The notes beneath the pieces were generated by a model. It was not told where the DNA came from. It made no database searches and saw nothing but the letters and a program-made list of their open reading frames with translations. DNA of 64,000 nucleotides from positions 59,856,583 through 59,920,582 of the forward strand of contig CM047808.1 in the NCBI GenBank assembly GCA_026214975.1, in the 5' to 3' direction. The translations under genes were made by a program, and so were the position numbers. Origin of the DNA: Gentiana macrophylla (taxonomy: Eukaryota; Streptophyta; Magnoliopsida; Gentianales; Gentianaceae). This document shows positions 6,251 through 46,947 of this stretch, in pieces. Position 1 is the stretch's first letter. Every line of letters begins with the position of its first letter.

Positions 6251-6616
6251 TGTTAAGGGTGATTTTATACGATTTATAAAGTTATATTTTATAGTGATTT
6301 CCTCCATATTCATATAATTTGCATAAAAATTAAGTGTTTAATTGAATTATTGAGCAAATGAGTTTTTAAACGGGTAAATCGCAAAGTTAGTGGATTTATG
6401 GGGTTTTATTGTTGATTTTATATTGATTTGGATGATATTACACTTTGCCATGTTTTATTATCTTGTAGATACACGAAATTGGTTCAAAAGAGGATTAAAA
6501 GATGTTAAGGATCAGAGTTATATGAAGAAAAAGAGATAGAGATGAAGTTGATTGAAGATGGAGACGGAAAAATCAGATTTGAAGTAATATGAACGTGCGT
6601 CCAGTTCTCTGTCCAG

Positions 6617-6795
6617 TGGACGGGCGTCCAACATATTGGACGGGCGTCCAGAAGAAGAAACTTGATTCAGAGTTCCCCCAAAATTGATGGACGAGCGTCT
6701 GGTTTAAAGAAGGACGGGCGTCTGATCATGACTCGGCCCGATTCGAAGATTTTAAAGCATCTGGACGGGCGTTCAACCCATCAGACGGGCGTCCA
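6617..6795 (+). repeat. Palindrome array in U3 of the Athila 5' LTR
   Basis: Six to seven copies of a 14-bp near-palindrome, consensus TGGACGGGCGTCCA (arms TGGACG and CGTCCA), at 6617-6630, 6637-6650, 6688-6701, 6711-6724, 6771-6784 and 6782-6795, with weaker copies near 6596. They sit directly upstream of the TATA box. The same motif recurs in the leader (7923-8082), before the env-position ORF (15094-15352) and in the 3' LTR (about 19250-19455). Confidence 0.85.
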
Positions 6796-6828
6796 GTGGC
6801 CGACATAGCAGCAGCCGACTTAAAATTC

Positions 6829-6836
6829 TATATATA
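6829..6836 (+). promoter_or_regulatory. Athila LTR TATA box
   Basis: TATATATA follows TTAAAATTC and precedes GCTGCG. The same sequence recurs in the 3' LTR at 19489-19496. It should direct the genomic RNA of the element. Confidence 0.7.
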
Positions 6837-7823
6837 GCTGCGTTATTTACAACAATTACATCAGATTTTCGAACCCTAAACCCTAGGGGCGGCTCAGTTT
6901 TTACTGCTTTTAGTTTCTAGTTAGATTCAAACACTTTTTATGTATTTTTATTCAAATAATTCGATCTTCAAGAGGATGCTAAGAGGCTAGACCTCTATTG
7001 AACAAGCATTGTGAAGCCGTCCGATCAACAATTCAGTTTCGATTCTCGTTTGTCTTGTGAGTTTTTAATTCAAAGTTGTTACTTTATTATGCTTATTTCG
7101 TTTTTATGCAATTATATCGAAAGATCTTTGCATGTATGATGTTTGATTTTGACGAGAATCATGTTAAACCCTAGATCGCCATAATAAAGATTAGACCTTT
7201 AATCTAATTAATGAGAGTTATTAGGTTGAATCTCTAGGTTAGAAACTTATAAATTTCACACCTTTGGTTAGAAAGCGTTAATCTTTATATCGAAAGATAG
7301 AAGATTAATAGGCGAACTTGTCTAAGAAATTAGGAGTTCATACCTTGGCTAGGTGAATCACAACTTGATTAAGAATCACGAGATAATCGAGGTAGAAATT
7401 GATAGTTGTAGGATAGGTGGATCAATTGCTTGTTCGTTTGTTATTTCATTGATTACACCACTTGAATTTGAATTATTAAGTAAATTTACGACCTTTATTT
7501 CGTAATAGATTTAGAATAGATTTAGTTTAGATAATTTGTTCGCAACCATATTTGCCCTGGCTTTAGATCTCGAACTTCTGTCCAGTTATTCTTATTATTA
7601 GTTCCGTTTCTCGTTCTAGTTTTCACTGTTTTATTTTTGTATCTTTTTAGTATTAATCGTGACATAGTTAGGTTAGATAATAAAAACTAGATTAAACAAC
7701 CCCGATTCCCCGTAAGATCGACCCGGTATCAACCTCTATACTACGATCCCTACACTTGGGGTATACCGGATTTATAAATATATTACTTGTTTATTTTCAT
7801 TGCAAAAATCCGTGACATGTTTT

Positions 7824-7841
7824 TGGCGCCGTTGCCAGGGA
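7824..7841 (+). promoter_or_regulatory. Athila primer-binding site (tRNA-Asp type)
   Basis: TGGCGCCGTTGCCAGGG lies six bases after the end of the 5' LTR. It is complementary, with one or two mismatches, to the 3' end of plant tRNA-Asp, the primer expected for Athila-type elements. Confidence 0.88.
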
Positions 7842-7922
7842 ACCAGACGGTTGTCTAGTTTTTATTTTTCGTTAGTAAGTTAACTTAGATATTTTTGTTT
7901 TAGTTTCTGTTTCGTTTATGTT

Positions 7923-8082
7923 CCAGTGAACGGGCGTCTAGGGTAGTGGACGCCCGTCAAGTCATGTTTTTTTTAACTGTTCGTATTTTTACCCAGTCAA
8001 ACGAGCGTCTGGTTATCCAGACGTCCATCCTGTTCATCTTCTAGGCAGACGCCCATCCAGTAATCTGGACGCCCGTCTGACC
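7923..8082 (+). repeat. Palindrome array in the Athila leader
   Basis: About six copies of the ACGGGCGTCTG / GGACGCCCGTC motif, in both orientations, lie between the primer-binding site and the gag start. They are more degenerate than in U3. In the RNA they would form small hairpins about 80 nt upstream of the gag start codon. Confidence 0.8.
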
Positions 8083-8157
8083 TCTTTTTCTTTAAAATCT
8101 TTTCTCGGTTTTAACCTTTGATTAAAAGGTTAAATAACTAGTTTTTGGTTTCGGTTT

Positions 8158-9720
8158 ATGCAAACTCGGAGTCAAAAGGGGCCACTGATCTATACCCCTG
8201 ACCTCGAGCGGACCATAGTCCGAACAAACAGGAGAAGTCTACGTTTTGCGGACCTCCCTGATGAAGAGAACACAGTCGATCGAGATATCGAGCAAGATCT
8301 AGCCCAAGAGATCGAAAATATAGTCATTATGGCTGCTGAAGATAGATGTACGTTGGCTGACTACGCCATGCCTGGCGTAGTAAAGGTCAACCCGGCTATC
8401 GTCCTACCAACCATAAATGCTCAGACCTTCGAACTCAAGCCTGGTCTCATTCAAATGATGCAACATGCATCTATCTTCCATGGGAATCAGTCTGAAAATC
8501 CGCATACACACGTACACACATTTCTAGAGATATGTGGTACGACTCGCATCCAAGGTGTAAGCGAGGATGCCATTAAGCTGAAGTTGTTCCCATTTTCCTT
8601 GAAGGGGGAGGCAAAAGAGTGGTATAACTCTCTCCCTGCTGAATCCATTACCACTTAGGCTGGACTTGAAAAAGAGTTCCTAAGTCAATACTTTCCGTTT
8701 TCCAAGACAGCCCAATGCCTCAGTGAAATTTTTACATTTTATCAGAAGGAAAACGAGTCATTCTTTGATGCTTGGAAGAGATTCAAATCTCTCCTTCGTA
8801 AATGTCCCCATCATGGTATTGACTTACAGAGGCAAGTCAATACGTTTTTCAGTGGATTGACCGAGCTCACTAAGGGCATGGTCAATAGCTCTTCTGGTGG
8901 GGCATTCTTGAGAAAGACACCTGAAGAGGGATGGGCACTATTTGAGGATATTGCCAAGTACAATTATGCCCCCTCCTCTCAAGCTATCCAAGCACCTCCT
9001 CCTCCTCCCAAGATCGAGGAGGTGAACATGCAAAGTCTGATCGCCAAGCTGCAAAAGCAGATGGCAGCTTCTCAAAATTCTCCTAATCCGATCAATCAGA
9101 ATCCTTCCCTTCAACAGAACTCTCAAGTTCTCATCTTTGAGAATCAAGTCGATCGCCATATGGTGGGGCAGTTTCAATTTGTTCCCCCCTCTGCTTATCA
9201 AGTTAATACTGTTCGTGAAAATGGACAGTATAATCCAGTCACATGTCAGAACTGTGACAATGTGGGGCATACATCTCATTTCTGTCCTATGAACGGACAG
9301 AATGCTGAAATAAACGCCTTCTCTGGCCAGACCAATCAGAGGTTTAACAATCAATTCTCTGGCCAGAGTAATCTTCAAAACCAGGGTTTTAGCCAGAATC
9401 AAAATTTCAATCCTAATTCAAATTTTAATCAAAATCAATACTTCAATCGAAACCCTACTTACAACCATAACCAGAACTCCAATTTTTCCAATCAGAATCA
9501 AAGGTTCAGTCAGAATTGGCCTAACAATTCTAATTCTACATTTCAGAATCGGTCCAGCCAGCCTTATCTGCAGAACATCCAAAACTCTCAAGCCCCCTCG
9601 CACTCGAATGATATCCAAGCTGAATGGAACTCTTTTCGGGAGGGGCAAAATAAAAACCTCCAACTCTTGATGAGCACAAACAAGAATCTTGAGAGGCAAA
9701 TAGGGCAATTGGCTGAATAG
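8158..9720 (+). pseudogene. gag: Athila gag polyprotein
   Basis: Capsid/nucleocapsid protein that packages element RNA into cytoplasmic particles. The start is ATG 8158 (MQTRSQKGPL), the usual Athila-type N-terminus. The retrotransposon gag domain runs from about residue 100 to 235 and includes FPFSLKGEAKEWYNSL. A TAG at 8656-8658 falls where the family has Trp, and the same frame continues to 9718, so this is one broken gene of about 520 codons. A zinc knuckle, CQNCDNVGHTSHFC, follows at about 9247-9288. The region after it is a long Asn/Gln/Phe-rich tract (about 9300-9560), then a coil ending RQIGQLAE. The terminal TAG is probably also secondary, because gag-like residues continue beyond it. 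Confidence 0.93.
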
Positions 9721-10133
9721 TTAGCTTCTAGACCCCCAGGGCAGTTGCCCAGCTTCACGGAAAAGAATCCAAAGGGTGGTCAAGTTGCTCAGACCGCTCT
9801 GAATAATAGCCAATGCACTGACCTGGTGACTTCAATTCCGTACGGTAGAGAATAGGCCAGTACGATGAACTTAAGGTCAGGTACTCAACTAAGTGGTCCC
9901 CCTCACCAGGGAAACCACTAACCCCTCCTGCCAGCGATAAGGCAAGAGGGGAAGTCGAGCACCTACGTTCCCCTTGGCTGCAAGAAAATACTCAGGTGGC
10001 TGATCCCCTGAGAGGTGAAAAAGTTGGAAGTCCTCAGGTGGCTGAACCCCTGAGGAATGAAGAATCAAGTGAGAGTCAGGAGGCTGATCCCCCGACTGAT
10101 AAGAAAAATTAAAAGGTAGTAAGGTGGAAGGAC
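9721..10133 (+). pseudogene. Degenerate gag-protease junction
   Basis: In the gag frame, residues after the 9718 stop still resemble the Athila gag end (LASRPPGQLPSFTEKNPKG) but meet TAG at about 9856 and TAA soon after. Around 9955-10090 a short segment with GGTGGCTGA(A/T)CCCCTGA repeats two to three times. The protease frame opens at 10134. In an intact element gag and pol are probably continuous. Confidence 0.6.
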
Positions 10134-12406: not shown

Positions 12407-14323
12407 ATGACTACTGAAAATGAATTATTGGCCGTAGTCTTTGCCCTGGACAAGTTTCTTAGTTACTTGTTGGGTGCTCAAGTAGTTGTGTGGACTGATG
12501 ACGCTGCTTTGCGATACTTGATAACTAAGAAAGAGGCTAAACCGCGCTTACTACGTTGTATACTGACCCAACAAGAGTTTGATGTCCAAATCAAAGATAA
12601 AAAGGGCAGTGAGAACATAGTGGCTGATCATGTCTCAAGAATGTTGAATGAGGAAAAGGATGACCCTGACGATATAGATCTTTACTTTCCTCTGGAGAAT
12701 ATCATGCTTATCGACGGTTGTCCTCCAGATGTTCCTTGGTATTCTTCCATCGTAAACTACCTTCATTCCCAATATCTTGACCCAGAGTTTTCCTATCAGG
12801 AGAAGAAGAAATTCTTCTCTGATTTGAAAACATACGTTTGGGATGAACCTTACCTCTTCAAGGTTTGTAAAGAAGGTTTGCTGAGAAGATGTGTTCCTGA
12901 ATCTGAGAAACATGATATTATTGAGCAATGCCACAGTGGACCCACTGGCGGTCACTTTGGTCCTTGGAAAACCGTTGCCAAGATCTTTCAATCCGGCTTC
13001 TATTGGCCCACGATCTTTAAAGATACAGAAGCTTTCTGTAAAGCTTGTGATAGGTGTCAAAGAACCGGAACTTTAACACGGCGTTTCGACATGCCGTTGA
13101 AACCCATTCTAGAATGCGAAGTCTTTGATGTATTGGGTATCGATTTTGTGGGACCATTCCCATCATCTTGTGGAAATAAATACATCTTAGTCTGCGTGGA
13201 TTATGTATCGAAATGGGTGGAGGCTCAAGCCACGTCTCACAATGATCATAAGACGGTCATGAAGTTTCTAAAGAAAAACATCTTCCTGAGATTCGGGTGT
13301 CCACGCGCCTTGATTAGTGATGAAGGGACACACTTTTGCAACCGACCCTTGGAGAAAGTGCTTCAGAAATATGGTGTCCGGCATAAAACTGGTACACCGT
13401 ATCATCCTATGACGAGTGGTCAAGTTGAGAGAAGCAACCAAAGTTTGAAGAAGATTCTGGAGAAAACAGTTAACAGTCATAGAAAAGACTGGAGTCTTAA
13501 GTTGGATGATGTACTGTGGGCATATCGAACTGCATATATGACCCCCATGGGTACATCACCCTATCAAATGGTTTATGGTAAACCATGCCACTTACCAATC
13601 GAGTTAGAGCATAGAGCCTATTGGGCCACGAAGTTTTTGAACTTCGATACCCAATCTTGTGGAAAACATCGATTGCAACAGTTGCATGAGCTTGATGAAT
13701 TTAGACTTCAGGCCTACGAAAGTGCCAGGATAAGTAAGGAAAAGACGAAACTCCTTCACGATGCCGAAATCAAGAAGAGAGAATTCCAAGTAGGGGAACA
13801 AGTTTTATTGTACAATTCCAGGTTACATCTGTTCCCTGGTAAGCTGAGGACACGATGGTCCGGTCCCTTTGAAATTCTCCAAATCGTTCCTGGAGGTGTT
13901 ATAGAACTACGAGGTTATGGTGACCAGCCGTTCCGAGTAAATGGTCAAAGGTGCAAGCATTACATTGGTCAAGCCAAGGAACATCCTCTGATTGTTCGAT
14001 TCCTCGATATCCTCGGGTGTGGTACTTCAGAAGTCGATAAATTTGATGAATTTTTGCCCGATTTGTTTTCCGAGAATGACGGTAGTGGTCCCTCTGAAGA
14101 AGTTCTAGCAGGTAGTTGGAACATGGAAGAGTTTGAGAAGGAGCAACAGTTGAAACTTCGTCAGAAGAAGAAGAAATCAACCATGGTGAGGTTTAAACGT
14201 GTGTGGAAGGCAATTAAAGAATTAACCCCGTGTGTTAGATGCTGTTTCTGCAGCCACACTACTGATCAAAGCCTACACGAGGTAGTGGCTGGCAGAAAAG
14301 TTAAATGGCCTGATCCAGGCTGA
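12407..14323 (+). CDS. pol: Athila pol, RNase H and integrase (open, 638 codons)
   Basis: Open from ATG 12407, although the natural frame starts further upstream. The first 80 residues are the RNase H domain (TTENELLAVVFALDKF, VWTDDAALRYL). The integrase zinc region follows at about residues 175-225 (HSGPTGGHFG, then CKACDRC). The catalytic core shows the D,D,E set: GIDFVGPFPSS, ALISDEGTHF and SGQVERSNQSLK. A chromodomain is absent; the C-terminal GPF-type region ends near HYIGQ. The tail (about 14030-14323) is acidic, then basic, and finally Cys-rich, and I do not recognise it. TGA at 14321-14323 ends the frame 14 nt before a conserved hairpin. This is the best preserved gene in the window. 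Confidence 0.95.
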   Translation: MTTENELLAVVFALDKFLSYLLGAQVVVWTDDAALRYLITKKEAKPRLLRCILTQQEFDVQIKDKKGSENIVADHVSRMLNEEKDDPDDIDLYFPLENIMLIDGCPPDVPWYSSIVNYLHSQYLDPEFSYQEKKKFFSDLKTYVWDEPYLFKVCKEGLLRRCVPESEKHDIIEQCHSGPTGGHFGPWKTVAKIFQSGFYWPTIFKDTEAFCKACDRCQRTGTLTRRFDMPLKPILECEVFDVLGIDFVGPFPSSCGNKYILVCVDYVSKWVEAQATSHNDHKTVMKFLKKNIFLRFGCPRALISDEGTHFCNRPLEKVLQKYGVRHKTGTPYHPMTSGQVERSNQSLKKILEKTVNSHRKDWSLKLDDVLWAYRTAYMTPMGTSPYQMVYGKPCHLPIELEHRAYWATKFLNFDTQSCGKHRLQQLHELDEFRLQAYESARISKEKTKLLHDAEIKKREFQVGEQVLLYNSRLHLFPGKLRTRWSGPFEILQIVPGGVIELRGYGDQPFRVNGQRCKHYIGQAKEHPLIVRFLDILGCGTSEVDKFDEFLPDLFSENDGSGPSEEVLAGSWNMEEFEKEQQLKLRQKKKKSTMVRFKRVWKAIKELTPCVRCCFCSHTTDQSLHEVVAGRKVKWPDPG

Positions 14324-14337
14324 TCTAAAAGAGTGTC

Positions 14338-15093: not shown

Positions 15094-15352
15094 TCAGACG
15101 TGCGTCCATGCCTTTGAACGCCCGTCTGATCTATGTCTGTCTTGGACGAGCGTCCATCCTTCCTGAACGCTCGTCCGTCCTTTGAAAAATTTGGACGAGC
15201 GTCCAAATTAATTTCTTGAACGACCGTCAGCAAGATTCCCTCCAACTCTGTTCAAAAATTGACAACCTGGACGAGCGTCTGAATATCTGGATGCCCGTCC
15301 AGTTCATGAGATCCCCAGCTGAACGCCCGTCCAGTTTCATGGACGCCTGTTC
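15094..15352 (+). repeat. Palindrome array upstream of the Athila env-position ORF
   Basis: Ten or more copies of the GGACGAGCGTCC / AACGCCCGTCTG family, in both orientations, fill this 260-bp non-coding stretch. They are the motifs of the U3 and leader arrays. A TATA-like AATAAATA lies just after the array, the arrangement seen in the LTR. Confidence 0.85.
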
Positions 15353-15363
15353 AGACCTGCGTC

Positions 15364-15371
15364 AATAAATA
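15364..15371 (+). promoter_or_regulatory. Possible internal promoter (TATA-like) for the env-position ORF
   Basis: AATAAATA follows the palindrome array and precedes CCCCTGCCC and an AC-rich segment similar to the LTR sequence after its TATA box (both include CAGATTT). This looks like a partial copy of the U3/R promoter layout, 580 bp before the ORF. Activity is inference. Confidence 0.4.
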
Positions 15372-15668
15372 CCCCTGCCCCCAGATTTCATTCAAACCAG
15401 AATTTTCAAATTGCACCACCCGACTTTTGCCCTCCTTTTGCCCTAAATTCATCGTTTCTAAACCAAATTGGGCGATTCAAAGTCCTACAAGCAGCTCTCA
15501 ATCCCCTCTTTTCGATTTTTCAAACCAAATCCCCCAACAAACACCAGTTAATCGGATTTAGTGACCTATATAGTCCGACTTTTTTGAAGAAAAATTCGAT
15601 TTTTTTTGTTCGATTTGGCACTGTTTGGGCTTCTAATCCTCTTTTTCATCATCCCATCATCCTATTTG

Positions 15669-15945
15669 GTAAGTTTTTATCAACTTTTCTAAGATTATTT
15701 CTCGTTTTTCTAAGTTCGATCTTCGAGTCGACTCTTTTATATGAATTTTTCCTTATTTGTTTTCTTTCTCTTCTTTTGTTTCTGTTTCTTGTTCTGTTGA
15801 TGATTGTGGTGATGTTGATGGTTATGGATGGGTTGCATTGTGGTTTTGGTGTTGGTTTGGTGTGACTTGGTTTTGAAATCCCGTTTGGACGATAAACGGG
15901 TGGTTTGTTTGAATTGTGGTTGGGGATGATTGTTGGTTTAGCTTA
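15669..15945 (+). other. Candidate 5'-UTR intron before the env-position ORF
   Basis: CTATTTG/GTAAGTTT at 15669 is a near-consensus plant donor. The following 200 bp are T-rich, and possible acceptors ending in AG lie around 15939-15945, just before ATG 15954. A hydrophobic 93-codon frame (15584-15865) runs across this stretch and is probably only the T-rich intron read as protein. Confidence 0.4.
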
Positions 15946-15953
15946 AGTTTACA

Positions 15954-17410
15954 ATGGTGCGTAAAGCGGTGCAGAAACGGCATGGTAAGGGGGTTGCCAA
16001 TGAACCTCCTAAGAAGAAGAAGGTTGTAGACCCCACATTAGTCAATCCGAACCGAGGCATCCATATTGGTGAACGTCAAAATCCTCCTAGAGGTCAATCT
16101 AGGGTTCCTTTACGGGATGAGTCTGAGTCTGGGTCAGACACTGATAATGATGTACCCCTAGTGAGACTACTTAGGGTTGAAGGGAGTGAAGACGAAACCT
16201 AGGTTTAGAGCTAAGCAAGCCGAGGAAGCAACTGAGAGGTCTAAGCCGGTTAGACAGAATGTGAGACCTCCTATCCCTATCCCCTTGGCTCGTAGGTTCA
16301 TAAATCCTAAGGCTTTCGAGGTGTACAATAAGCACTATGTTATGTGGACGATGTTAATAGAGCGAGCCATCCTTGAGACCAAGGTTGATCCCGCTTTTGT
16401 TAAAATGCTTACGGATAGAAAGTGGGGAGCATTGATGAGAACTCCGAGGACCCCAGTTAATGCTACATTAGTCCGAGAGTTTTATGCCAATTGCTCGGAA
16501 ACGGATTTGGAAGCCGGAGTTGTGATGGTTCGGGGGGTAAAGGTTCCGTTTACACCTAAGGTTATAAACGAGAAGTATAACTTGGCACTTTTTGAGAGGT
16601 TGGACTACAAGGAGGCAATAAAGGCTAAGCAGGATGCGGGAGAGGATCCGCTGGAGGATTTACGTTTGTTGGTATGCCCGGAGGTGCCGTGGACACTTAG
16701 ACCGGGCGAAGATAGGAAAGAGTTGGTGACAACGAGTTGGACGGAGGATTGGAAGGTCCAATGTCGGTTTATTCAGAACTTGTTGTTACCTAAGAACAAC
16801 ATGACTCATTTTCACATTGGTGACCTTGGGATGTTATATGCCTTGAATTTCAAGCTAAATGTGGATGTAGGACAAGCCATTTTCGATGAGATGTCCACGA
16901 ATCAGAAGGTCTATGCTCGGTGTTTGATATGTCCGCATTTGATCCACAGTATCTGTCAAGATGCTAGGGTTCCCGAGTACAAGACCGATCACAAACCGAA
17001 GAATCCTAGGTACTTGCAGCGGGAGAAAGTGAAATCTTCGGGACAGTTTGAGGCTGAGGCAGCACGCGAGCCCGGTTCGTCTTCGGCACCACCTCGAGCA
17101 TCTTCCCTTCCATCTTTATCTCCCTCAGTCCGGATGAGGTTGAGTATGGCTAACAAAAGTAATGGAATCGGATGGAGGATATTAGGACTTCCTAGAACAA
17201 TATCTTGACTATTTTGCGGTGCATGACCGGCCTCCGAGGGACGACAGAGTCTTCAACCCGAGCATTATAGATTACGTCTATTCGGATGAGATTGAGCAAG
17301 CCATTGCGGATGTTCTTCATGATTCCAAGTCTTCTTCGGATGAGGAGCAGACTGACTCTCCTACGGGTGGATCACCTCCTCCGATGATTCTTCATGGCAC
17401 CGCGCACTGA
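15954..17410 (+). pseudogene. Env-position ORF: putative plant transposon protein
   Basis: Occupies the slot where retroviruses carry env but has no signal peptide or membrane anchor. It starts at ATG 15954 with a basic N-terminus (PPKKKKVVDP, nuclear-localisation-like). A 1-base shift near 16180 moves to the frame with the conserved domain (16177 to about 17000): LARRFINPKAFEVY, FYANCSETD, VMVRGVKVPFTPKVINEKY, LLLPKNNMTHFHIG and ARCLICPHLI. These blocks match the putative plant transposon protein family (I believe Pfam PF20167) found in Athila-type elements. A Ser/Pro-rich linker follows. A second shift near 17170-17200 leads to a short acidic tail (17219-17410) with HDRPPRDDRVFNPS. The function is not known; a DNA- or chromatin-binding role is only a guess. 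Confidence 0.85.
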
Positions 17411-18907: not shown

Positions 18908-20471
18908 TGTTAAGGGTGATTTTATGCGATTTATAAAGTTATATTTTATAGTGATTCCCTTCATATTCATATAATTTGCATAGAAATTAAGTGTTTAATT
19001 GAATTATTGAGCAAATGAGTTTTTAAACGGGTAAATCGCAAAGTTAGTGGATTTATGGGGTTTTATTGTTGATTTTATATTGATTTGGATGATATTACAC
19101 TTTGCCATGTTTTATTATCTTGTAGATACATGAAATTGGTTCAAAAGAGGATTAAAAGATGTTAAGGATCGGAGTTATATGAAGAAAAAAAGATAGAGAT
19201 GAAGTTGATTGAAGATGGAGATGGAAAAATCAGATTTGAAGAAATATGAACGTGCGTCCATTTCTCCGTCCAGTGGACGGGCATCCAACTTATTGGACGG
19301 GCGTCCAGAAGAAGAAAATTGATTCAGAGTTCCCCCAAAATTGATGGACGAGCGTCTGGTTTAAAGAATGACGGGCGTCTGATCATGACTCGGCCCGATT
19401 CGAAGATTTTAAAGCATCTGGACGGGCGTTCAACCCATCAGACGGGCGTCCAGTGGCCGACATAGCAGCAGCAACCGACTTAAAATTCTATATATAGCTG
19501 CGTTATTTACAACAATTACATCAGATTTTCAACCCTAAACCCTAAGGGGGCTCGCCATCGCTTTTACTTTCTAGTTAGATTCAAACACTTTTTATGTATT
19601 TTTATTCAAATAATTTGATCTTCAAGAGGATGCTAAGAGGCTAGACCTCTATTGAACAAGCATTGTGAAGCCGTCCGATCAACAATTCAGTTTCGATTCT
19701 CGTTTGTCTTGTGAGTTTTTAATTCAAAGTTGTATCTTTATTATGCTTATTTCGTTTTTATGCAATTATATCGAAAGATCTTTGCATGTATGATGTTTGA
19801 TTTTGATGAGAATCATGTTAAACCCTAGATCGCCATAATAAAGATTAGACCTTTAATCTAATTAACGAGAGTTATTAGGTTGAATCTCTAGGTTAGAAAC
19901 TTATAAATTTCACATATTTGGTTAGAAAGCGTTAATCTTTAGATCGAAAGATAGAAGATTAATAGGCGAACTTGTCTAAGAAATTAGGAGTTCATACCTT
20001 GGCTAGGTGAATCACAACTTGATTAAGAATCACGAGATAATCGAGGTAGAAATTGATAGTTGTAGGATAGGTGGATCAATTGCTTGTTCGTTTGTTATTT
20101 CATTGATTACACCACTTGAATTTGAATTATTTAGTAAATTTACGACCTTTATTTCGTAATAGATTTAGAATATATTTAGTTTAGATAATTTGTTCGCAAC
20201 CATATTTGCCCTGGCTTTAGATCTCGAACTTCTGTCCAGTTATTCTTATTATTAGTTCCGTTTCTCGTTCTAGTTTTCACTGTTTTATTTTCGTATCTTT
20301 TTAGTATTAATCGTGACATAGTTAGGTTAGATAATAAAAACTAGATTAAACAACCCCGATTCCCCGTAAGATCGACCCGGTATCAACCTCTATACTACGA
20401 TCCCTACACTTGGGGTATACCGGATTTATAAATATATTACTTGTTTATTTTCATTGCAAAAATCCGTGAAA
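18908..20471 (+). repeat. Athila 3' LTR
   Basis: 1564 bp, collinear with the 5' LTR. It carries the U3 palindrome array (about 19250-19455) and the TATATATA box (19489-19496). The terminal CA is changed to AA here (CCGTGAAA against CCGTGACA), so the element has one defective end. Confidence 0.95.
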
Positions 20472-24866: not shown

Positions 24867-26895
24867 TGATGGACGTAATTTCTACGGTCCGGTCAAACAA
24901 AGACTTGAAACCTTAGCAGAATCTACCCTCTAACCGGCAGTGTACCGGGTCGAGTGTAGGATAGTGCTTGAGGAGTCCGAGGTCGATCCCACAGAGATTG
25001 GCTTTGAGTACCACAGTTGACTTATTTCTCAGTTCAGGTCAACAAGATATATACGGAGTTATACTATTGCATAAAATAAAGATTACACTACTCGGAATTC
25101 TAAACAGTTAAAAGAAGTATGGCCGAACTACGATCCAGCGGATTAGTTTACCATTAGAATGATTGCCCCGGGAGTGTGCCTTACTCTACCTTGCCGTCTA
25201 ACAATAACTCATAGGACAAACCCCGTATTGGGACTAAACTTGATGACTAGGGCGTCAATCTAGTACACGGGTAGGTGTCAGACTACCTTTCAAGCCCAAA
25301 ACTTCTACGGTCCCGAAACCCCGTTCCCACACGTCGCCGCAACATACATTTATAGGCTAACGTGTGTGCAACTATGAAAAAGGTTGTCAATCTCATTCAA
25401 AGCTATTAAAACAATCAAAACAAGTTTCGTGATGTGAATTATCGATTAGAACGTTAAATTACGCGCTACACTACCTCCCGGTTCGTCTCTCTAATGGTGT
25501 TTCACCCACCTTCACATAGTTCAACCATACGAAGAATCTAGCTACTCATAATCGAATCTATGTTATACAAACAAGATAAAAGCATCACAACAACAATAAA
25601 ACAACAAGAACACATACCCATTTTGATTCAAATTGAAGAACCAAATTCGAGCTCCAAAAAAGAACAAATCTTGTCACTTGAAATGTTACAAATCGAAGCT
25701 AAAAGTTGTATAATCAAAGAGAGGATCGAAAGATGATTCTAATGATATATAGCACGTTATCTAACACCTTGGGACGAAGAAAATCGCCCAAAATCGCCTA
25801 AGAGAAGTTGGGGGGCGGCTGTTGTTCCATTAGGGTTGGAATGAGGGAGTATTTATAGGTGGAGCAGAAAAATACGCAGCAAACTGGCCCTGGAAGCCAG
25901 TCCAGCCATTCTGGACGCCAGTCCAGGGCTTCTGGACACCAGTTCACCTGAGTTTTGCATGAAGATGGAAGCTTGTTCTTGAGTGGACGCTCGTCCAGAA
26001 TGGCCTTCAGTATTTCCACCATAACTTCACTTCTAGGGATCCAAATGAGATGATTCAAGATGCATTGGAAATCTGATTCATTTCTCTACAACTTTCATCA
26101 AGACAACTTTCCCTGAAAATGCCTCCAAGTGTGACCAAAATGCCCATGAAGTGACTGGTTCTGCTTTGAATCGCTTGACGCCCGGCCCACTCAAGATCTC
26201 AACTCTCTCAATCAAATTGGGCATTCTCGACGCCCGCTTGCACATCCTGGACGCCCGTCCACATCCCCGGACGCTCGTCCACTTGTCCGACGCTCGCCCA
26301 CTTGAAGTCTCAACTCTCTGCATCAAAAAAGCACCACGGACGCGCCGCTTCATATTTCGACGCCACCCGTAACCCAGCTCCAGTCTTTTGCTCATAACTT
26401 CACTTCTAGGGCTCCAAATGAGGTGATTCAACATGCGTTGGAAATATCTTTCAATCCTCTACAACTTGCATCAAGACACCTGGACCAGAAAATGCCTCCA
26501 TCATAGGCCAAAATGCTGCTTAAGTGAACGTAGGGTGAGAACAACAATTATCTTCTTCCTTATCTTCATTTTTCTCCTTTTTTGGCTCATTCTTGCACCT
26601 TGATGATACTTCTCATCATAAATCTTTGCCTTCCGGGTTCTCGAGACACCCTAGTCCTGCATCCATATGAAACAACAAGCAAACGTGTAACCCCGCAAAC
26701 TACGGGTGCTCGGGAAAACGAGTATAAAATGCTAAAATAAGGCCGAGTTTACGGAAAACCAACAGTCACTCGCCGTGCAACAAAACTTCATTTCATACTC
26801 AAAACAGGGTCTAAACTTACCCGAAACATGCCAGAAATGTGATAATCGTGGGGCTAAATCGCACAAAATGTACACAATAAAGTTGGTTCCTATCA
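24867..26895 (-). mobile_element. Solo LTR of an Athila-type element
   Basis: 2029 bp with TG...CA ends (TGATGGACG...CCTATCA on the plus strand), flanked by the 5-bp duplication CTTAC (24862-24866 and 26896-26900). There is no internal retrotransposon sequence. On the minus strand a TATA box (ACCTATAAATAC, about 25850-25858) lies downstream of palindrome arrays (25885-26015 and 26161-26360) of the CTGGACGCCAGTCCAG / GGACGCCCGTCC type. An AGGTCGATCCCACAG segment near 24980 matches the other Athila-type LTRs here. It probably formed by recombination between the LTRs of a full element. Confidence 0.85.
25885..26360 (-). repeat. Palindrome arrays in the solo LTR
   Basis: Two clusters of short palindromes, including CTGGACGCCAGTCCAG (perfect 6-bp arms around GCCA, near 25912), GGACGCTCGTCC and GGACGCCCGTCC. 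For the minus-strand LTR they lie upstream of the TATA box, as in the other two Athila-type elements. Confidence 0.8.
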
Positions 26896-38321: not shown

Positions 38322-39977
38322 TGATTGACGTGATCAGTCAAGTGATAATAAAATACTAGATCACCATAAACCAATACTAGCAAGAGGGGACTCGGTCCAT
38401 CGTAGTATAGCTATAGCGAATCAAGGTCGATCCCACAGGGAACCAATATATGAATCATTGTATATATAAACAACCAATTAATCATGCCAAGAACACAGAA
38501 GCGGTCTATAACCAACAAATGACAAGAAAAGGTAAAAGACACGACTCGACACAACACATAAACGTACAAGTAATTAACCTCCCCAATTATTAACTTATCG
38601 TCTGGAATTAGTGAACTATATAATTAAAAAATACTTCACAACTATTAACATGATTCGTATTTCTCTTATATTGGCTACGGGAGTCATCCCTTAAACTAGT
38701 TCTAGCTCCGGGTAGGCCATCTAGATCACTGTGCTACATTACGTGACTTGGCTTTGTAGGCCTCCATCTCATATAACCTGCACGCTTACAAAACTAGGGA
38801 TGCCGATATTAACCGTATTCCTCACCTCCTGTGGTTAGGCATACTTCTTTGATGATCGCATCAGTCTCTGTCCCATTAACATTCACTTTTTAGGTCTCCT
38901 GTTAATCTACGATTTACGTATAACTAGGTGTCGACAATTCCCAAATACAGAACAGATCTAGATCTCGCTGAAAGTCCCGGAAGATCAATTCATGAGCCGA
39001 CCTAGGAGCCCTATATTGGTATTTCATAATAATATACTAATTAATACAGATGAGCAACGTAGCCGTAGCCATACCTACTAAGATAAGAAATTCTAGATGG
39101 ACAATCACATCATAAAGATGTGGCTAGATTGACGCAGCGAAAACCTAAATCTTAGCGTTTCTCTATACGTAACGGATAAAATAGAGAGTCATAAAGCAAT
39201 TATATAGATCTACTAAAAACACGATTGTCGGTCATACCAAAGTAATCTATAGGTCACCGGATAACAGATCTGGGCGTGTGGATCCTTATAGACAAGGAAT
39301 CCCCACTACCTCATATCGTATCCTTAGATCTACATTTTCTGGTGAAGAACGAACAAACTCAAACGATAAATAATAATTGGGGGGATTTAATTACAACATA
39401 GAAGAAAGAACAATTAAAGACAAATAACTCACATAATTACTGCTGGAAATCTGTACTAAAACTGCTCTGAAAAACTTGTAGATTGTGTTATGAGTCGATG
39501 TGTACAAATTGGCTAATGAAAAGGAGTTTACATAGGTTGCAAACCGACTTAGAATAGCCGTCATCCGACCTAAATTACGTTTCCTAAACCCTAACGAAAC
39601 CTAAAACGCGTCCGGAGAAGTAGGGGCAAAACAGTCAACTCTCTGGCAGCCAGAGCAGGCTCGCTGCCAGCGAGCCAGATAAACTACCTGGGCTTTTTTC
39701 TGCTTTGCCTGGTCCGTCCCTGGTCAGTTTTGGTTCTTTTATCCACTCCGAAGTCCAGCTAAATTGCTTTCGAATTAGCCCACTATAAATAAGACAAAAA
39801 ACAAGGCTTGTAATATCAGATAATATAATAAAATGGCTAATTACATAATAACGAGTCGTAACTCGGCTCGGGTGTAATTTATGCACGAGACGACTAATTA
39901 TTAACCACTTAAAGCCCATTTAAGCTAGAATCGAGGGTAATAAATAGATAATTAATGGTGTAAATTGATCATCATCA
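38322..39977 (-). repeat. 3' LTR of the non-autonomous element
   Basis: 1656 bp, similar throughout to 45293-46947. Differences include a TCTCTTATA insertion near 38665 and a missing block near 38828. The TATA box is altered here (TTTACATAGG at 39527-39536 against TTTATATAGG in the other LTR). The palindrome pair CTCTGGCAGCCAGAG (39641-39655) and GGCTCGCTGCCAGCGAGCC (39658-39676) lies upstream of it in minus-strand terms. Confidence 0.93.
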
Positions 39978-41389: not shown

Positions 41390-42522
41390 TCAATCTCCTC
41401 CATCAAAAGATCTTCCAGAACCCGGAGGATAACGAGGAGTAGTGGGCTCAAATCCCTCAAAACCAGGTGGTGGTGTAGGCCGACGGTCACGTCGGGGTCT
41501 AGAAATGTCATCTCCATCCATACTTCTCACAATCCTCCCGACCATGTGATGCATCTCAGCCACCGTCCGCTCCATTCCATTGATACGAGAAAAAGTTGCT
41601 CCAAGTCTCGCCCTCATCCGGCGGCATTGCCTTCACCGCTATTCCTCGCTTGTCGGGGTCAAGGCGGTGGTCTTTCATGTGTGTTGGCATTGGTGAGGGC
41701 CGGAACGAATGTTCTTGACAAAGGGGCCTCCGGGTCAACATAGATATTCGCCTCAACACCGAGCAAACCAGCCGCTAGTGCAAGATTTGAAATCACAGAA
41801 CCGTAGGGCAGAACGGTCCTTTTCTTCCTGGCTACATCGGTCATGTTTCCCCGTATGAGTGTGCCAAGTCTACCGGCCGCTCTAACAATAACCAATACAT
41901 CAAGGCAGCCTGAAAGTCATAAACTGTGGATGTATGGCCGGTCGGAACTAAATCGGAACAAATGAACCGATGTAAAAGCTTGTCATCCCAAGTGGAAAAT
42001 GCGGCCTCCTGAAAATTTCGAGCATATCGACCAACATACCACTCGATGTCAAAGTAATTACCGATATCTGCTAACAAATCGTCAGAATGGTAATACACAT
42101 TAGCAAACTCCTCAGGGTGATCCACTAAACTGCCCAAAATGAAATAATCATTGATAGTGGTGGGCGATATAGAAAACGCAGCCTCTAACCGTAGCCATGT
42201 GGGAATGGGGATGCACCGCTAAATAGGCATAAAACTATCCTACCAAGGACCCGTTACACCGAGTAGGCGTTTCGACCACGTACTCCCAATTGTGATAAGC
42301 GATAAGATCTGTAACGAGCTCCCCGCAATCCTCAAGATCTATGCCCCTTCCTTGATGCACCGTCGCATTGCTCCAATGGGTACAGAATGCCTCATAGACC
42401 GCGGGGCTAACAAATTGTGGCACCCCATCAATCATCGGTATTGCATAACCATCGAGAACAAATTGCGCTCCAGCCTGATGAATCTGTGGTTGATTCCTTC
42501 TACTCCGATTATTCCGATTCAT
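41390..42522 (-). pseudogene. Putative plant transposon protein of the non-autonomous element
   Basis: Same family as the Athila env-position ORF (15954-17410). It starts at ATG 42522 (MNRNNRSRRNQPQ). 42522-42235 has FVSPAVYEAFCTHW. After a shift, a VRG, then SPTTINDYF stretch near 42140-42210 gives the family signature. 42137-41841 has WDDKLLHRFICSDLVPTGHTS, matching the LLP-x-x-H block of the Athila copy. 41895-41659 has GRLGTLIRGNMTDVARKKRT and 41617-41390 a coil, then a Pro/Gly-rich end. At least three frameshifts disable it. Confidence 0.75.
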
Positions 42523-42570: not shown

Positions 42571-42654
42571 GACTCACTGGGGGCGAGCTAGGGTCTCGCT
42601 GGGGGTGAGCTAGGGTCTCTCTAGGGGCGAGTTACCCAGTCCTGGCTCGGCTCG
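42571..42654 (-). repeat. Palindrome-type array before the transposon protein ORF
   Basis: Three to four variants of CTCGCTGGGGGCGAGC-type near-palindromes (CTCACTGGGGGCGAG, CTCGCTGGGGGTGAG, CTCTCTAGGGGCGAG) lie 50-130 bp upstream of ATG 42522. They are the family motif of this element, which also occurs in its LTR and leader. Confidence 0.75.
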
Positions 42655-42660
42655 TTTCGG

Positions 42661-43685
42661 TTTGTTAATCGTTACATTGATCGATTTGAAATGTGTATTT
42701 ACCAGAAATTTAGGAGCCAAATTGAATGAGAAATGACCTCATTGCAATTTATAAAATTTGGAAAAAGGTAGAGTGATTAAATTTGGGTATAAATTGGTAT
42801 AAATTGCCAAAGATAGCACCATAACAATTTTTCTACATAAATTGGGTGTTTTGGGAAAAATGGAGGTTTAAAATATGATGGGTTTAGAAAAATGATAGAG
42901 AAAGAATAAGAAGAGTGTAGTGGGTGTGAGAAAATTGTGGGTAGAAGAAGGGTTTAAATAGAGAGGGGAGTGAAAAATGAGAGACATGGTGATTGGTGGG
43001 TTTAGAAAAGAGAGGATTGGTGAGGTGGAAAGTGATAAAGGTAGAAGGTGGAAGATAGGGATATGTAGAAAAAGTGTTGACCACTTTTTACTTTTTGACC
43101 CTAAAAAATTTGAATTTTAAAAATAGGAGGGTAAACCAAAATTTTCTAACTTTCACACTTTACCAAAAATATTGCTCTAAAAAAAAACCGGATACTGCCT
43201 AACGAAATGTTAATTTCGCACGGGCGAAACAACATTTCACCGGGGCAGTCTGACCAAACTGTCTCCGATTAAATCCATCCTACCTCCAGTCAGTTTCACT
43301 TCAAAGCTCATGCTTTTCCTCCGTCTTCTTCTCGGTTTGATTGTATGCTTTTTATTCCTAAATTAGGATGCTATCCAAGACACACCTACGGAACTCTATT
43401 TCACGTTTCAACAATTTGAGTAAAAAAGCTTTTGCACATCCTTTACCCAATGGTCATCGGAACACGGCAAAAATAAAAAACCTCAACTGTTTTAACGTTA
43501 CTTTTATTTTGACTCAAAGAAAAGAAAAGGAAAAAGATAAGAAAAACTAAAAACCTAAAGAAAACTATGAAAAACCTAAGGGATAGAAGTAGTTCTGAGT
43601 TTAGAGTCCTCAGCTTGACTTTTCAGAAAAACTCATTCCATTGAGCTACCTTCTTTTGCCTTCCAGATTTTCACCCGGTTAGCCT
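42661..43685 (-). other. Spacer before the transposon protein ORF, with promoter-like sequence
   Basis: Non-coding. On the minus strand CTATTTAAACC (TATA-like TATTTAAA, 42953-42960) is followed by a CT- and AC-rich segment resembling a plant 5' UTR. The ORF itself begins about 430 bp further on. Confidence 0.5.
42953..42960 (-). promoter_or_regulatory. TATA-like box of a possible internal promoter
   Basis: TATTTAAA on the minus strand, followed by CCCTTCTTCTACCCACAA. It fits a start site about 400 bp upstream of the transposon protein ORF. Sequence match only. Confidence 0.4.
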
Positions 43686-44749
43686 TCACCGAGATCTGCT
43701 TGCCTTCTTTACGAATGAGCGCCTTTCCTTTAGTCGTGAGACCAAGGAAACACAGTCATCTTGACCATCCAAACAGGCGCCGACCTCAGTGACTGTCTCA
43801 GAAACCAGAGAGTTTTTAACAGATCGAACTCTACGAGTTCGCCTTCTAGGTCGCCTCCGCCTATCTTTAGCACTTAAGCTCTCCCGAGTCTCAGCGTCCC
43901 TTTTGGGTGGGGCGGCCCCAGCTCCGTACAGAGTGTCTACCTCATCATCCAGAAGAATAGAGGTATCTACTTGTACCATACTCCGAGACTGAGCGTCTTT
44001 CTCCTTCCTTAAGATAGACAAGAATTCTCCCTCACTGCTTTCCTTAACAGTGTCAACACCACCAACTTTGCCTCGGCCTAGAATCAAGGCAGCTTCCTCC
44101 GCACTATGGACTGTGATTGCTGATATTGTAGGCGGAATGGGATAATTAGGTCTCATAATCCCATGGACTTCTGAGCCCTTAGCGTCGGAAAGAGTTAGCT
44201 CGAACTTGTCCATGTTGATCTGGGCTTTGGAGGTAGCCATAAAAGCTCGGCCCAATATGATCGGGCAGCTCCGGTCCTCGTCGATTTCCATCATGACTAC
44301 ATCTATCATAAAACGGAGCTTTCCAATACTGATGGTCATGTTGGCATCGTCCCAGTTCTGACGAAACGTATGCTATCCGCACAACGAATAGTCATCAACG
44401 TGTTCGTAGGAGTGAGAACCATCATCCTATCACTCAAACTCTTAGGAACGATATTCAGGCTCGATCCAGAGTCAATCAATGCTAAGCCTGCATGTTCGCG
44501 TTCTAAGGTCACATCTACAATGAACGCACCGGGGTCTCCGAGCTTGGGCAGTAATCGGGCGTTGTTCTCTATATCGACTGCCTCTCTAGAACAAGGGACG
44601 AGGGGTGAGTCATCAAGATCTGACTCAGAACTAGGATATTCAGGAGAAGGGGAAAGGGATGGTAAGTGCTCGGGGTCGGATTCAGATTTAGACCTAGAAC
44701 TAGAATCAGAATCAGAATCAGAAATAATAATAGGGATACGAGCAATCAT
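43686..44749 (-). pseudogene. Retropepsin-like ORF of the non-autonomous element
   Basis: 44749-44336 begins MIARIPIIIS, followed by a Ser/Asp/Glu-rich tract, then LGDPGAFIVDVTLE and LALIDSGSSLNIVPKSLSDR, the aspartic protease active site in the Athila arrangement. A shift near 44340 leads to 44339-43686, with IGKLRFMIDVVMMEIDEDRSCPIILGRAFMA, the C-terminal protease segment, then an Arg-rich tail (RRRRPRRRTRRVRS). No RT follows. Without gag to cleave, its role is unclear; it may be a relic or an RNA-binding protein using the basic tail. Confidence 0.75.
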
Positions 44750-45093
44750 ACCTTGGAAGAGATTGGAATTCTTGCTTCCCTTTGCTCATGTCTCCGTCTT
44801 ATCCTATCTTTCTTTCGCTTTCGTGTGTCCTGCCTTAGCGGTGTTGTCTTAGTGCGCAAGACTTTTATTTCTTCATTCCTAGCCTAAGAAAATTGGTTGG
44901 TTGGCATTTCGGCTTGGCTCAAGTAATAACTTGACGAAATGATGTATTGCTCTGGCTTTCTGCAAACATAAGAAAAAACAAACAAATGTTAGTAAAACTA
45001 ACAACAAGATGATTACTCATGCCGCTGCTGCTTTCTGAGACTAACAAACAGGGGTAAAAACGACACAATTGAAAAACCCAGAAATTGAGAACA

Positions 45094-45128
45094 GGTCTCG
45101 CTGGTAGCGAGCAGGGGGCTCGCTGGGA
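45094..45128 (-). repeat. Palindromes in the leader of the non-autonomous element
   Basis: CTCGCTGGTAGCGAG and GGCTCGCTGGG sit between the primer-binding site and the protease-like ORF. They are the element's own motif and occupy the place of the Athila leader array. Confidence 0.7.
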
Positions 45129-45268
45129 GAAAATCCCAGTTCAGCAATTCTGGCAATTTTTCACACAGGCAGATTGCCAGAGGGACTCAAAAAACATAAA
45201 AACAGACCCTAAAACAAAAAACTCGACATGAATAAAAAAATTATTTATATATAAAATTGATTTTTGGC

Positions 45269-45286
45269 TCCTCGGCAACAGCGCCA
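45269..45286 (-). promoter_or_regulatory. Primer-binding site of the non-autonomous element (tRNA-Asp type)
   Basis: It reads TGGCGCTGTTGCCGAGGA on the minus strand, six to seven bases after the 5' LTR. It matches the Asp-tRNA site of Athila with two mismatches. Confidence 0.85.
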
Positions 45287-45292
45287 AAAACT

Positions 45293-46947
45293 TGATTGAC
45301 GTGATCAGTCAAGTGATAATAAAATACTCGATCACCATAAACCAATACTAGCAAGAGGACTAGGTCTATCGTAGTATAGCTATAGAGAATCAAGGTCGAT
45401 CCCACAGGGAACCAATATGTGAATCATTTTATATATAAACAACCAATTAATCATGCCAAGAACATAGAAGCGGTCTATGACCAACAAATGACAAGAAAAG
45501 GTAAAAGACACGACTCAACACAACACATAAACGTACAAGTAATTAACCTCCCCAATTATTAAGTTATCATATGGAATTAGTGAACTATATAATTAAACAA
45601 TACTTCACAACTATTAACCCGATTCGTATTTGGCTACTGGAGTCATCCCCAAAACTAGATCTAGCTCCGGGTAGGCTATGTAGATCACTGTGCTACATTA
45701 CGTGACTTCGCTTCATAGGCCTCCATCTCATATAACTCGCACGCTTACAAAACTAGGGATGCCAATATTAACCGTATTCCTCACCTAGGCAACATTCCTG
45801 TGGTTAGGCGTACCTCCTAGATGATCGCATCAGTCTCTGTCCCATTAACATCCACTTTTTAGGTCTCCTATTAATCTACGATTTACGTATAACTAGGTGT
45901 CGACAATTCCCAAGTACAGAACAGATCTAGATCTCACTGAAAGTCCCAGAAGATCAATTCATGAGCCGAACTAGGAGCCCTATATTGGTATTTCCTAATA
46001 ATACGCTAATTAATACAGACGAGAAACATAGCCGTAGCCATACCTACTAAGATAAGAAATTCTATATGGACAATCACACCATAAAGACGTGGCTAGATTG
46101 ACGCGGCGAAAACCTAAATCTTAGCATTTCTCTATACGTAACGGATAAAATAGAGAGTCATAAAGAAATTATATAGATCTACTAAAAACATGATTGTTGG
46201 TCATACCAAAGTCATCTATAGGTCACCGGATAACAGATCTAGGCGTGTGGATCCTTATAGACAAGGAATTCCCACTGCCTCATATCGTATCCTTAAATCT
46301 ACATTGTTCGGTGAAGAACGAACAATCTCAAACGAAAAATAATAATTGGGGCGAATTAATTACAACATAGAAGAAAGAACAATTAAAGACAAATAACTCA
46401 CATAATTACTGTTGGAAATCTGTACTAAAACTGCTCTGAAAAACTTGTAAATTGTGTTATGAGTCGATGTGTACAAATTGACTAATGAAAGGGAGTTTAT
46501 ATAGGTTGTAAACCGACATAGATTAGCCGTCAACCGACCTAAATTACGTTTCCTAAACCCTAACGAAACCTTAAATGCATATGGAGAATCAGGTGCAAAA
46601 CAGACAACTCACTGGCAGCCAGAGCAGGGCTCGCTGCCAGAGAGCCAGATAAACTACCTGGGCTTTTTTCTGCTTTGCCTGGTCCGTCCCTGGTCCGTTT
46701 TGGTGCTTTTATCCACTCCGAAGTCCAGCTAAATTGCTTCCGAATTAGCCCACTATAAATAAGACATAAAACAAGGCTTGTAATATCAAATAATATAATA
46801 AAATGGCTAATTACATAATAATGAGTCGTAATTCGGTTCGGGTGTAATTTATGCACGACACGACTAATTATTAACCTCTTAAAGCCCATTTAAGCTAGAA
46901 TCAAGGGTAATAAATAGATAATTAATGGTGTAAATTGACCATCATCA
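45293..46947 (-). repeat. 5' LTR of the non-autonomous element
   Basis: 1655 bp. The TATA box CCTATATAAA lies on the minus strand at 46496-46505 and is intact here. Palindromes (CTGGCAGCCAG and GCTCGCTGCCAGAGAGC, 46606-46650) lie about 100 bp upstream of it in transcription terms. Confidence 0.93.

Follow-up and report, generated by a model that had tools for sequence, protein, structure and literature searches.

We describe arrays of short palindromes in Athila retrotransposons of Gentiana macrophylla, found in a stretch of 64,000 nucleotides (GCA_026214975.1, contig CM047808.1, positions 59,856,583 to 59,920,582 of the forward strand; this whole stretch is called the window), for which the closest described counterpart is the repeated motif (RM) of the Ty1/copia Sireviruses. 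In the parts of Bousios 2010 (PMC2829016) cited here, RM boxes are family-specific palindromes located upstream of the TATA box and upstream of ENV, with a CGG-CCG core in all but one. The same kind of motif is described there in the long terminal repeats (LTRs) of Sireviruses that have no ENV gene, and the RM was termed Sirevirus specific since the classic copia elements compared in that work lack it. The LTR cis-region of maize Sireviruses contains clustered palindromes on which small RNAs concentrate, and maize Ty3/gypsy elements generally have no peak of such RNA structure, as reported in the sections of PMC10760457 used here. Athila elements themselves make up a large share of some plant genomes, approximately 12% in Silene latifolia (Table 1 of PMC3212565), and the role of added env-position genes is described as unclear in the portion of PMC7264820 cited. 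In Arabidopsis, Athila elements without pol keep gag and env under purifying selection, and families recombine (Marco and Marin 2008, cited parts of PMC2410132); the term "palindrom" does not occur in the text of PMC2410132.

The window holds an Athila element, a solo LTR and a non-autonomous element, all of which carry such arrays. The results below confirm that the arrays are real and general in this genome and that the palindrome of a family, here called its word, is nearly always common to the sites of that family. The arrays are probably family-specific, phased binding sites that would act at the DNA level.

RESULTS

Palindrome arrays in the window

The arrays and the features that fix their position are as follows (coordinates within the window, with strand).

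6590..6795, + strand: 5'-LTR U3 with 7 word-1 sites (TGGACGNNCGTCCA type) in an array that precedes the TATA box (about 6829)
6828..6838, + strand: TATA box of the 5' LTR, CTATATATAG
7820..7841, + strand: Athila primer-binding site, TTTTTGGCGCCGTTGCC
7927..8079, + strand: word-1 array in the leader, between the primer-binding site and gag
15095..15353, + strand: word-1 array before the env-position open reading frame (ORF), 10 sites
15364..15375, + strand: TATA-like AATAAATACCCC, directly after the last site of the pre-env array
16177..17208, + strand: env-position ORF, Pfam PF20167 (Transposase_32), open part only
19247..19452, + strand: word-1 array in U3 of the 3' LTR
25891..26281, - strand: word-1-type array of the solo LTR, whose TATA box follows at about 25858
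39641..39676, - strand: 3'-LTR U3 of the non-autonomous element, word-3 array (GGCTCGCTGCCAGCGAGCC)
41770..42489, - strand: Transposase_32 gene of the non-autonomous element, in pieces
42572..42654, - strand: word-3-type half-sites before the Transposase_32 gene of the non-autonomous element, one 22-bp step scored
45095..45127, - strand: leader of the non-autonomous element, word-3 site
46606..46650, - strand: 5'-LTR U3 of the non-autonomous element, word-3 array

The first of these elements is of the Athila (Ty3/gypsy) type, with an Athila-type primer-binding site at 7820, RNase H before integrase and an env-position ORF after pol. Matches to RT_RNaseH and then to Integrase_H2C2 and rve fall within 12407-14323, which is the gypsy-type domain order, and the ORF at 16177-17208, after the integrase, matched PF20167 with an E value of 2.6e-27. 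This copy of the ORF looks broken because there are stops upstream in its frame.

When the window was scanned with TGGACGGGCGTCCA (up to 3 mismatches, both strands counted), 50 matches were obtained versus 1.4 expected, and those outside the four sites of the Athila element belonged to the solo LTR. The original prediction, made from the letters of the window, had placed one palindrome of the Athila element in U3 of both LTRs, in the leader and before the env-position ORF, and matches were present at every one of these sites. It had also given the solo LTR an array of its own type. The location upstream of the TATA box held, and the separate type did not, since 26248-26261 is an exact copy of word 1 on the - strand; the solo-LTR array therefore belongs to the word class of the Athila element, and the window contains two word classes and not three. 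For the non-autonomous element, a palindrome of its own had been proposed at three settings. This stood for U3 and the leader: GGCTCGCTGCCAGCGAGCC gave 5 matches versus 0 expected (39658-39676, 45095-45113 and 46628-46646), the leader copy having 3 mismatches, and exact GGCTCGCTGCCAGCGAGCC occurred at 79 places in the whole genome (reversed control, 0). The copies before the ORF (42572-42654) have only half-sites in common with word 3 and were found at up to 4 mismatches, so that this is the weakest of the claimed sites.

In the pre-env array of the Athila element, 5 of the 9 steps between sites were 20-25 bp and the remaining steps were 28-51 bp. The TATA-like AATAAATACCCC that follows this array is a possible promoter of the env-position ORF. 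Between the array and the env-position coding start, a 5' splice-site-like TTTGGTAAGT is found at about 15665 (in 15600-15960), as would be expected if transcripts starting at an internal promoter are spliced. A tandem repeat region at 3440-4804, upstream of the Athila element, is marked by open frames built of a repeated peptide (FTSPLQRSEAVSRLP-like).

Position and sharing of words in a blind sample

The Athila primer-binding site pattern occurred 9,867 times in the 1.79 Gb of genome searched (reversed pattern, 0). The first 40 of 100 listed places, all on one contig, were taken as a sample that was chosen blind to palindromes, and 10 kb was read at each of the first 20 loci and 2.5 kb at each of the other 20. 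Relative to dinucleotide shuffles of the first 20 loci, GC-rich palindromes were present at 8.6-fold at -1500 to -1100 (U3), at 5.7-fold at -1100 to -700 and at 6.2- and 5.0-fold in two leader bins; the gag/pol bins gave 1.1- and 1.2-fold, and two U5 bins gave 0.4- and 1.3-fold. Values of 2.3-fold at +2.0 to +2.8 kb and of 2.9- to 3.3-fold beyond +4.5 kb were obtained from bins into which pre-ORF regions and 3' LTRs fall.

Five words were defined from the sequence listings, i.e., word 1 (GGACGNNCGTCC), word 2 (TCGGTCGACCGA), word 3 (GGCTCGCTGCCAGCGAGCC, from the non-autonomous element of the window), word 4 (CCGGATCGATCCGG, from one locus) and word 5 (GCCCGGTNAACCGGC). At least two sites of one word were present in U3 plus R/U5 (-1700 to -600) in 32 of the 40 loci (13 with word 1, 16 with word 2, 2 with word 5 and 1 with word 4), versus a mean of 0.15 and a maximum of 1 in 20 dinucleotide shuffles, and a word site was present in the leader of 29 of the 40 loci (shuffled mean, 3.55). 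Word 1 was found in U3 of 17 loci and in the leader of 14, and word 2 was found in U3 of 16, in R/U5 of 13 and in the leader of 14. Counted by site, word 1 occurred 52 times in U3, 61 times in leaders, 7 times in U5 and once at the start of gag (shuffled means of 4.7 for the LTR and 2.85 for the leader), and word 2 occurred 40 times in U3, 30 times in R/U5, 26 times in leaders and 0 times in U5 and gag (shuffled means of 0.7 and 0.5). The LTR word was the same as the leader word in 22 of the 24 loci that were called for word 1 or 2 at both.

Sharing between sites was also evident when no word was defined. Half-sites of U3 palindromes recurred as palindromes in the leader of the same element 20 times, in 15 of the 40 elements; when leaders were dealt among elements 10,000 times, the mean was 8.1, the maximum was 18 and none of the 10,000 permutations reached the observed 20. 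A chance origin of the words was rejected by the shuffles, the reversed-pattern controls and this permutation.

Homologous LTRs differ in the word at one slot

Eight LTRs that were aligned end to end had the TATA region, R and U5 in common. The same slot in U3 of these LTRs contained word 3 in the window element, word 2 in six sampled loci (L016, L017, L020, L022, L023 and L029) and neither word in L028. The R/U5 array was present in the word-2 members and absent as a block from the other two. Clustering of LTRs by U5 gave groups of 17, 10, 8 and 3 and four singles, and words differed within the first group (word 3 versus word 2) and within the third (L041 and L042 versus their word-1 relatives, at up to 88% U5 identity). 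The U5-homologous pairs with differing words were 66-88% identical. It had been predicted that position is kept while sequence differs, and this is what was found, with four words each present in at least two settings and with differing words in one slot of homologous LTRs. A check that had been attached to that prediction, namely, whether palindromes are equally frequent elsewhere in the elements, did not refute it (5.0- to 8.6-fold over shuffles at the sites versus 1.1- to 1.2-fold in gag/pol).

Spacing of sites and tests of DNA versus RNA

For word 2, 64 of the 77 steps of up to 60 bp were exactly 22 bp; for word 1, 52 of 106 were 20-21 bp, with smaller groups at 28 bp (10 steps) and 51 bp (8 steps). 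The linkers were largely distinct for word 1 (52 of 55) and distinct in 40 of 73 cases for word 2. Genome-wide, two exact word sites with any gap from 0 to 30 were found 10,730 times for word 2 and 7,582 times for word 1 (reversed controls, 0 for both). Among those listed, 50 distinct places with word 2 comprised 48 at 22 bp, one at 23 bp and one at 24 bp, and 50 places with word 1 comprised 33 at 20 bp, 3 at 21 bp, 3 at 23 bp, 1 at 24 bp, 6 at 28 bp, 2 at 32 bp and 2 at 39 bp. Because a step of two helix turns is kept across differing linkers and words, dimers placed side by side on one face of the DNA would fit.

One-sided transitions in the arms kept a G-U pair in 110 cases and broke it in 131, and thus there was no bias toward wobble pairs. 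Selection on a hairpin should favour G-U-keeping changes, and because no such excess was seen and the spacing is locked, RNA hairpins are disfavoured. Double changes at a pair kept pairing in 17 of 23 cases for words 1 and 2, a result that is equally compatible with a palindrome in DNA and a hairpin in RNA. Together, these results favour putative dimer sites at the DNA level over RNA hairpins.

Arrays upstream of Transposase_32 genes

Pre-env arrays were found in the Athila element of the window (word 1), in L020, L022, L023, L029 and L031 (word 2), in the non-autonomous element of the window (word 3) and in L021 (word 5), and thus an array stands beside a Transposase_32 match in six sampled loci (L020-L023, L029 and L031) and in both window elements. 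L024 and L026 have word-1 internal arrays at fitting positions, with no Transposase_32 match alongside in the stretch read. A profile search of the genome with PF20167 gave 17,504 first-look candidates, of which 150 were scored, and upstream regions were fetched for three genes (ranked 1, 2 and 8) whose upstream DNA had not been seen beforehand. All three had arrays upstream, two of them with new words. L056 has word 2 three times at exact 22-bp steps, L055 has the new word CGGTYTGCRCCG with steps of 21 and 20 bp in two pairs, and L054 has a new word around GGTACCCACC with three steps of 21 bp; the L054 and L055 words were spotted by eye and scanned afterwards, with 2 of the 9 scan matches of L054 falling outside the array. 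A TATA-like box is located between array and ORF in L054 and L055, as in the window element (AATAAATACCCC at 15364).

PF20167 was matched by the ORFs of the window Athila element and L020 and, with a score under the curated cut-off, by that of the window non-autonomous element, and it was the sole match above cut-off when these proteins were compared with Pfam. Five sampled elements (L020, L021, L022, L023 and L029) and the window non-autonomous element contain Transposase_32, and none of them has an internal match to reverse transcriptase or integrase; such matches occur only beyond the 3' LTR in L029 and in the non-autonomous element. The first ORFs of L020 and L029 matched an aspartic protease family, that of L020 below cut-off. 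For Transposase_32, the ratio of nonsynonymous to synonymous divergence (dN/dS) was 0.146 for L020 versus L022 (245 codons; dS, 0.21) and 0.158 for L020 versus L029 (238 codons; dS, 1.6). Rows for L023 (0.84) and L031 (0.38) were dropped for overlapping alignment pieces, and the window non-autonomous element and L021 were saturated. These values suggest purifying selection on Transposase_32 in elements without pol, in agreement with Arabidopsis, where such Athila elements keep env under purifying selection (PMC2410132, cited parts). One member of the L020-L022 pair looks recombinant because dS is 0.21 for Transposase_32 and 1.3 for the first ORF.

The predicted proteins begin with MPPRR or MGPKR in L020, L021 and L056 and not in L055. 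No transmembrane-like stretch is present in the open Transposase_32 ORF of L020 or in that of the window, and the L021 protein has a hydrophobic C-terminal stretch. A protein-database search for relatives gave 564 candidates, none at an E value of 0.001, and searches of the PDB by sequence and by fold gave no usable match for Transposase_32 and no recognised DNA-binding fold. An AlphaFold model built from nine alignment rows was weak (mean predicted local distance difference test [pLDDT] score, 60). The sequence may bear some resemblance to the plant mobile domain proteins MAIN/MAIL1.

One word-2 locus with pol, L018, had no Transposase_32 match in the 10 kb read. Onward to its 3' LTR there was no word-2 array, and an apparent nested antisense LTR was found instead. 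The gene contents of word-2 elements look complementary, in that this element (L018/L053) combines pol and word 2 with no Transposase_32 match and those without pol have Transposase_32.

CpG decay between the two LTRs of an element

The two LTRs of 11 elements were compared in 12 aligned pieces; one element, L028, has no word CpG. TG or CA had replaced CpG at 4 of 103 positions inside words versus 97 of 532 outside (Fisher P value = 9e-5) and 22 of 94 within 60 bp of words, and 17.9 changes inside words were expected from sequence context and element. With a looser mask for words, 10 of 147 CpGs had changed versus 25.8 expected. Differences at non-CpG positions were higher in words (33 of 380) than near them (78 of 2122) or far from them (231 of 12089). 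Slower decay of word CpGs would fit shielding from methylation by a bound protein, and the result is suggestive only, because the sample is small and L013, L015 and L026 show misaligned or assembly-like differences. In the LTR pairs of L013 and L026, odd in-word differences recur (GGATCAAG versus GGACTGG and CGCCC versus CGTCC), and these seem to reflect systematic errors of assembly or base calling at palindromes and not mutation.

An array in a contig from another assembly

L057 (BMWJ01000030.1, 3922 bp), filed under Streptomyces clavifer JCM 5059, contains an Athila-type LTR and primer site, and it is likely that plant DNA has contaminated this bacterial draft genome. In U3, shortly before the TATA box, AATGGAGCCACCATT, a word without CpG, occurs at 46- to 47-bp steps with partial copies between; no array was listed in its leader, and this is a single case. 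No cross-species copies were confirmed in viral contigs. Words such as CTCGATCGAG may occur in other plants; a literature search for such letters gave nothing on retrotransposons by title among the papers listed.

DISCUSSION

We interpret the arrays as family-specific, phased DNA-binding sites that act at the DNA level, with a probability of about 0.65. This interpretation draws on the position of the arrays, the sharing of words, the differing words in homologous slots, the fixed spacing with varied linkers and the absence of a wobble bias, all observed here. The regulatory system of family-specific sites that was originally predicted is the best reading of these sequences. From them we infer protein binding, dimerisation, promoter control and a route of word change, as follows. 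Each word, being dyad symmetric, would be bound by a dimeric protein, and adjacent dimers, mostly 20-22 bp (two helix turns) apart, would share one face of the DNA and cooperate. The sites in U3, R/U5 and the leader would govern the LTR promoter, and in at least some elements, sites would also govern a second promoter, that of the env-position Transposase_32 gene. The sites of one family would answer to one factor, because there is nearly always one word per family. Word changes may spread as sets, partly via recombination between families.

Several observations weigh against this interpretation. About half of the word-1 steps are off 20-21 bp, and 28 and 51 bp fit whole turns less well. In L056 and L020, the array is located directly before the ATG, and because no TATA box stands between, control of a promoter is less clear in the word-2 non-autonomous elements. 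Eight of the 40 loci fell below the threshold of two sites, and 4 of those had no called word in the leader either. In the two loci whose LTR and leader disagreed, L041 and L042, U3 carries word 2 and the leader carries word 1; they look like one hybrid family, a natural chimera. The loci used to define the words also served for counting them, a circularity that the word-free permutation avoids, and the counts are not independent events, because many loci and listed places are related copies or LTR partners. All sequences except one are from one genome.

As to the binder, a host factor is a tentative choice with somewhat less than an even chance, and it is at least as likely as recognition by the element's own Transposase_32 protein, which we consider doubtful. 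In the former case, each family would have adopted the sites of a different dimeric host transcription factor, as is supposed for the LTR boxes of Sireviruses, and a switch of word would be a switch of tissue or stress response. The location upstream of the TATA box fits, and in the cited parts of PMC2829016 the same layout is found in Ty1/copia Sireviruses and the Vitis motif CGGTCGACCG equals the core of word 2, a likeness that would call for no element-coded protein, although this common core may be due to chance among few GC-rich palindromes. However, a host factor alone leaves unexplained the common word of U3, leader and pre-ORF sites and the tie to Transposase_32 genes. Under self-recognition, an idea raised in the original prediction by analogy with the VANC proteins (anti-silencers of VANDAL transposons), the env-position protein would bind the word of its own family and activate that family or keep it unmethylated, with word and protein changing together and insulating families from one another. 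It would fit that words differ among families of one genome and mostly agree between sites, that elements without pol retain Transposase_32 at the low dN/dS values given above, that arrays preceded all 3 fetched genes, that word CpGs changed less than their neighbours and that the open L020 and window ORFs have no transmembrane-like stretch. Set against this are the weak AlphaFold model with no PDB fold match, the hydrophobic C-terminal stretch of L021, the absence from L018 of a Transposase_32 match and of a word-2 array up to the 3' LTR, and the non-CpG LTR differences, which are higher and not lower in words. Moreover, Sireviruses without ENV share such an LTR motif (PMC2829016, cited parts), and selection on env in Arabidopsis Athila elements without pol was read, in the cited parts of PMC2410132, as cooperation between families. 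In its fullest form, which we regard as unlikely, the product of the env-position gene would be no envelope; it would be a DNA-binding regulator, an activator or anti-silencer, that is family specific, switches fast and reads its own word in the LTR, the leader and its own promoter. Word and protein would change together, and elements without pol would retain the gene for its effect of opening their own copies.

Two further explanations dispense with binding sites in DNA. RNA hairpins in the transcript, an idea raised in the original prediction, might serve packaging or translation control or form double-stranded RNA that feeds small RNAs, as argued for maize Sireviruses. The leader, R/U5, pre-ORF and 3'-LTR U3 copies should all be transcribed, some adjacent sites can pair into longer hairpins, a step of 21-22 bp could echo the length of small RNAs, and small RNAs concentrate on Sirevirus palindromes (as reported in the cited sections of PMC10760457); the preserved pairing of double changes agrees as well, though any palindrome, DNA or RNA, would produce it. 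Against hairpins stand the spacing of largely 20-22 bp, or about two helical turns, whatever the linker, the lack of an excess of wobble-compatible changes, and maize Ty3/gypsy elements, generally without such an RNA-structure peak in those same sections; we consider hairpins improbable. Less probable still is a functionless by-product of tandem duplication, i.e., satellite-like growth. Some linkers do repeat, and the copy number of arrays varies; however, linkers mostly differ while word and step are kept, separate sites carry one word, and word CpGs decay less than their neighbours, albeit in a small sample. With linkers this diverse, duplication was disfavoured as the origin of the arrays.

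If the arrays are indeed family-specific binding sites, a private word common to the LTR, the leader and the env-position promoter would provide a direct handle on the role of env-position genes. If a host factor binds them, two unrelated superfamilies would have settled on the same promoter design, and the words would mark the host factor that each family exploits.

Comparison with known systems

Among described systems, VANC/VANDAL likewise has family-specific arrays of short motifs in noncoding parts, which in VANDAL evolve fast and together (cited parts of PMC5735166 and PMC10398659). In contrast to the Athila words, which are palindromic and putative binding sites, the VANC21 motif YAGTATTAY is non-palindromic, its copies stand in one orientation, its binding is proven, and it belongs to a DNA transposon. 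The "DOWN" promoter motif linked with the plant mobile domain proteins MAIN/MAIL1 (PMC7156037, cited part) is a loose parallel only. Maize Sirevirus palindromes are tied to small RNA mapping and RNA structure in the cited sections of PMC10760457, whereas the Athila evidence points to sites at the DNA level.

The likeness to the Sirevirus RM is closer. As in the RM, palindromic boxes of Athila are clustered upstream of the TATA box of the LTR, and further boxes precede the env-position gene; the core of word 2 is identical to the motif of the Vitis Sirevirus (Table 3 of PMC2829016). CGG and CCG arms are present in words 2, 4 and 5 and in the L055 word and not in word 1 (GGACGNNCGTCC) or word 3. 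Unlike the RM, which belongs to Ty1/copia, the arrays described here are carried by Ty3/gypsy Athila elements with Transposase_32 in the env position. The kind of system is therefore known and the variant is new within the literature searched, because the Athila arrays are the Sirevirus design in another superfamily. No paper on family-specific palindrome arrays in Athila was found by title or start of abstract among the papers listed in searches of open-licence literature on Athila/gypsy palindromes. Measured in Athila and beyond the Sirevirus RM are the sites in the leader and R/U5, the step of 20-22 bp, the switching of words on homologous LTRs and the presence of arrays in elements both with and without pol. 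As far as the literature was searched, the Athila design thus goes beyond the Sirevirus precedent in its extra sites, its phasing and its word switching.

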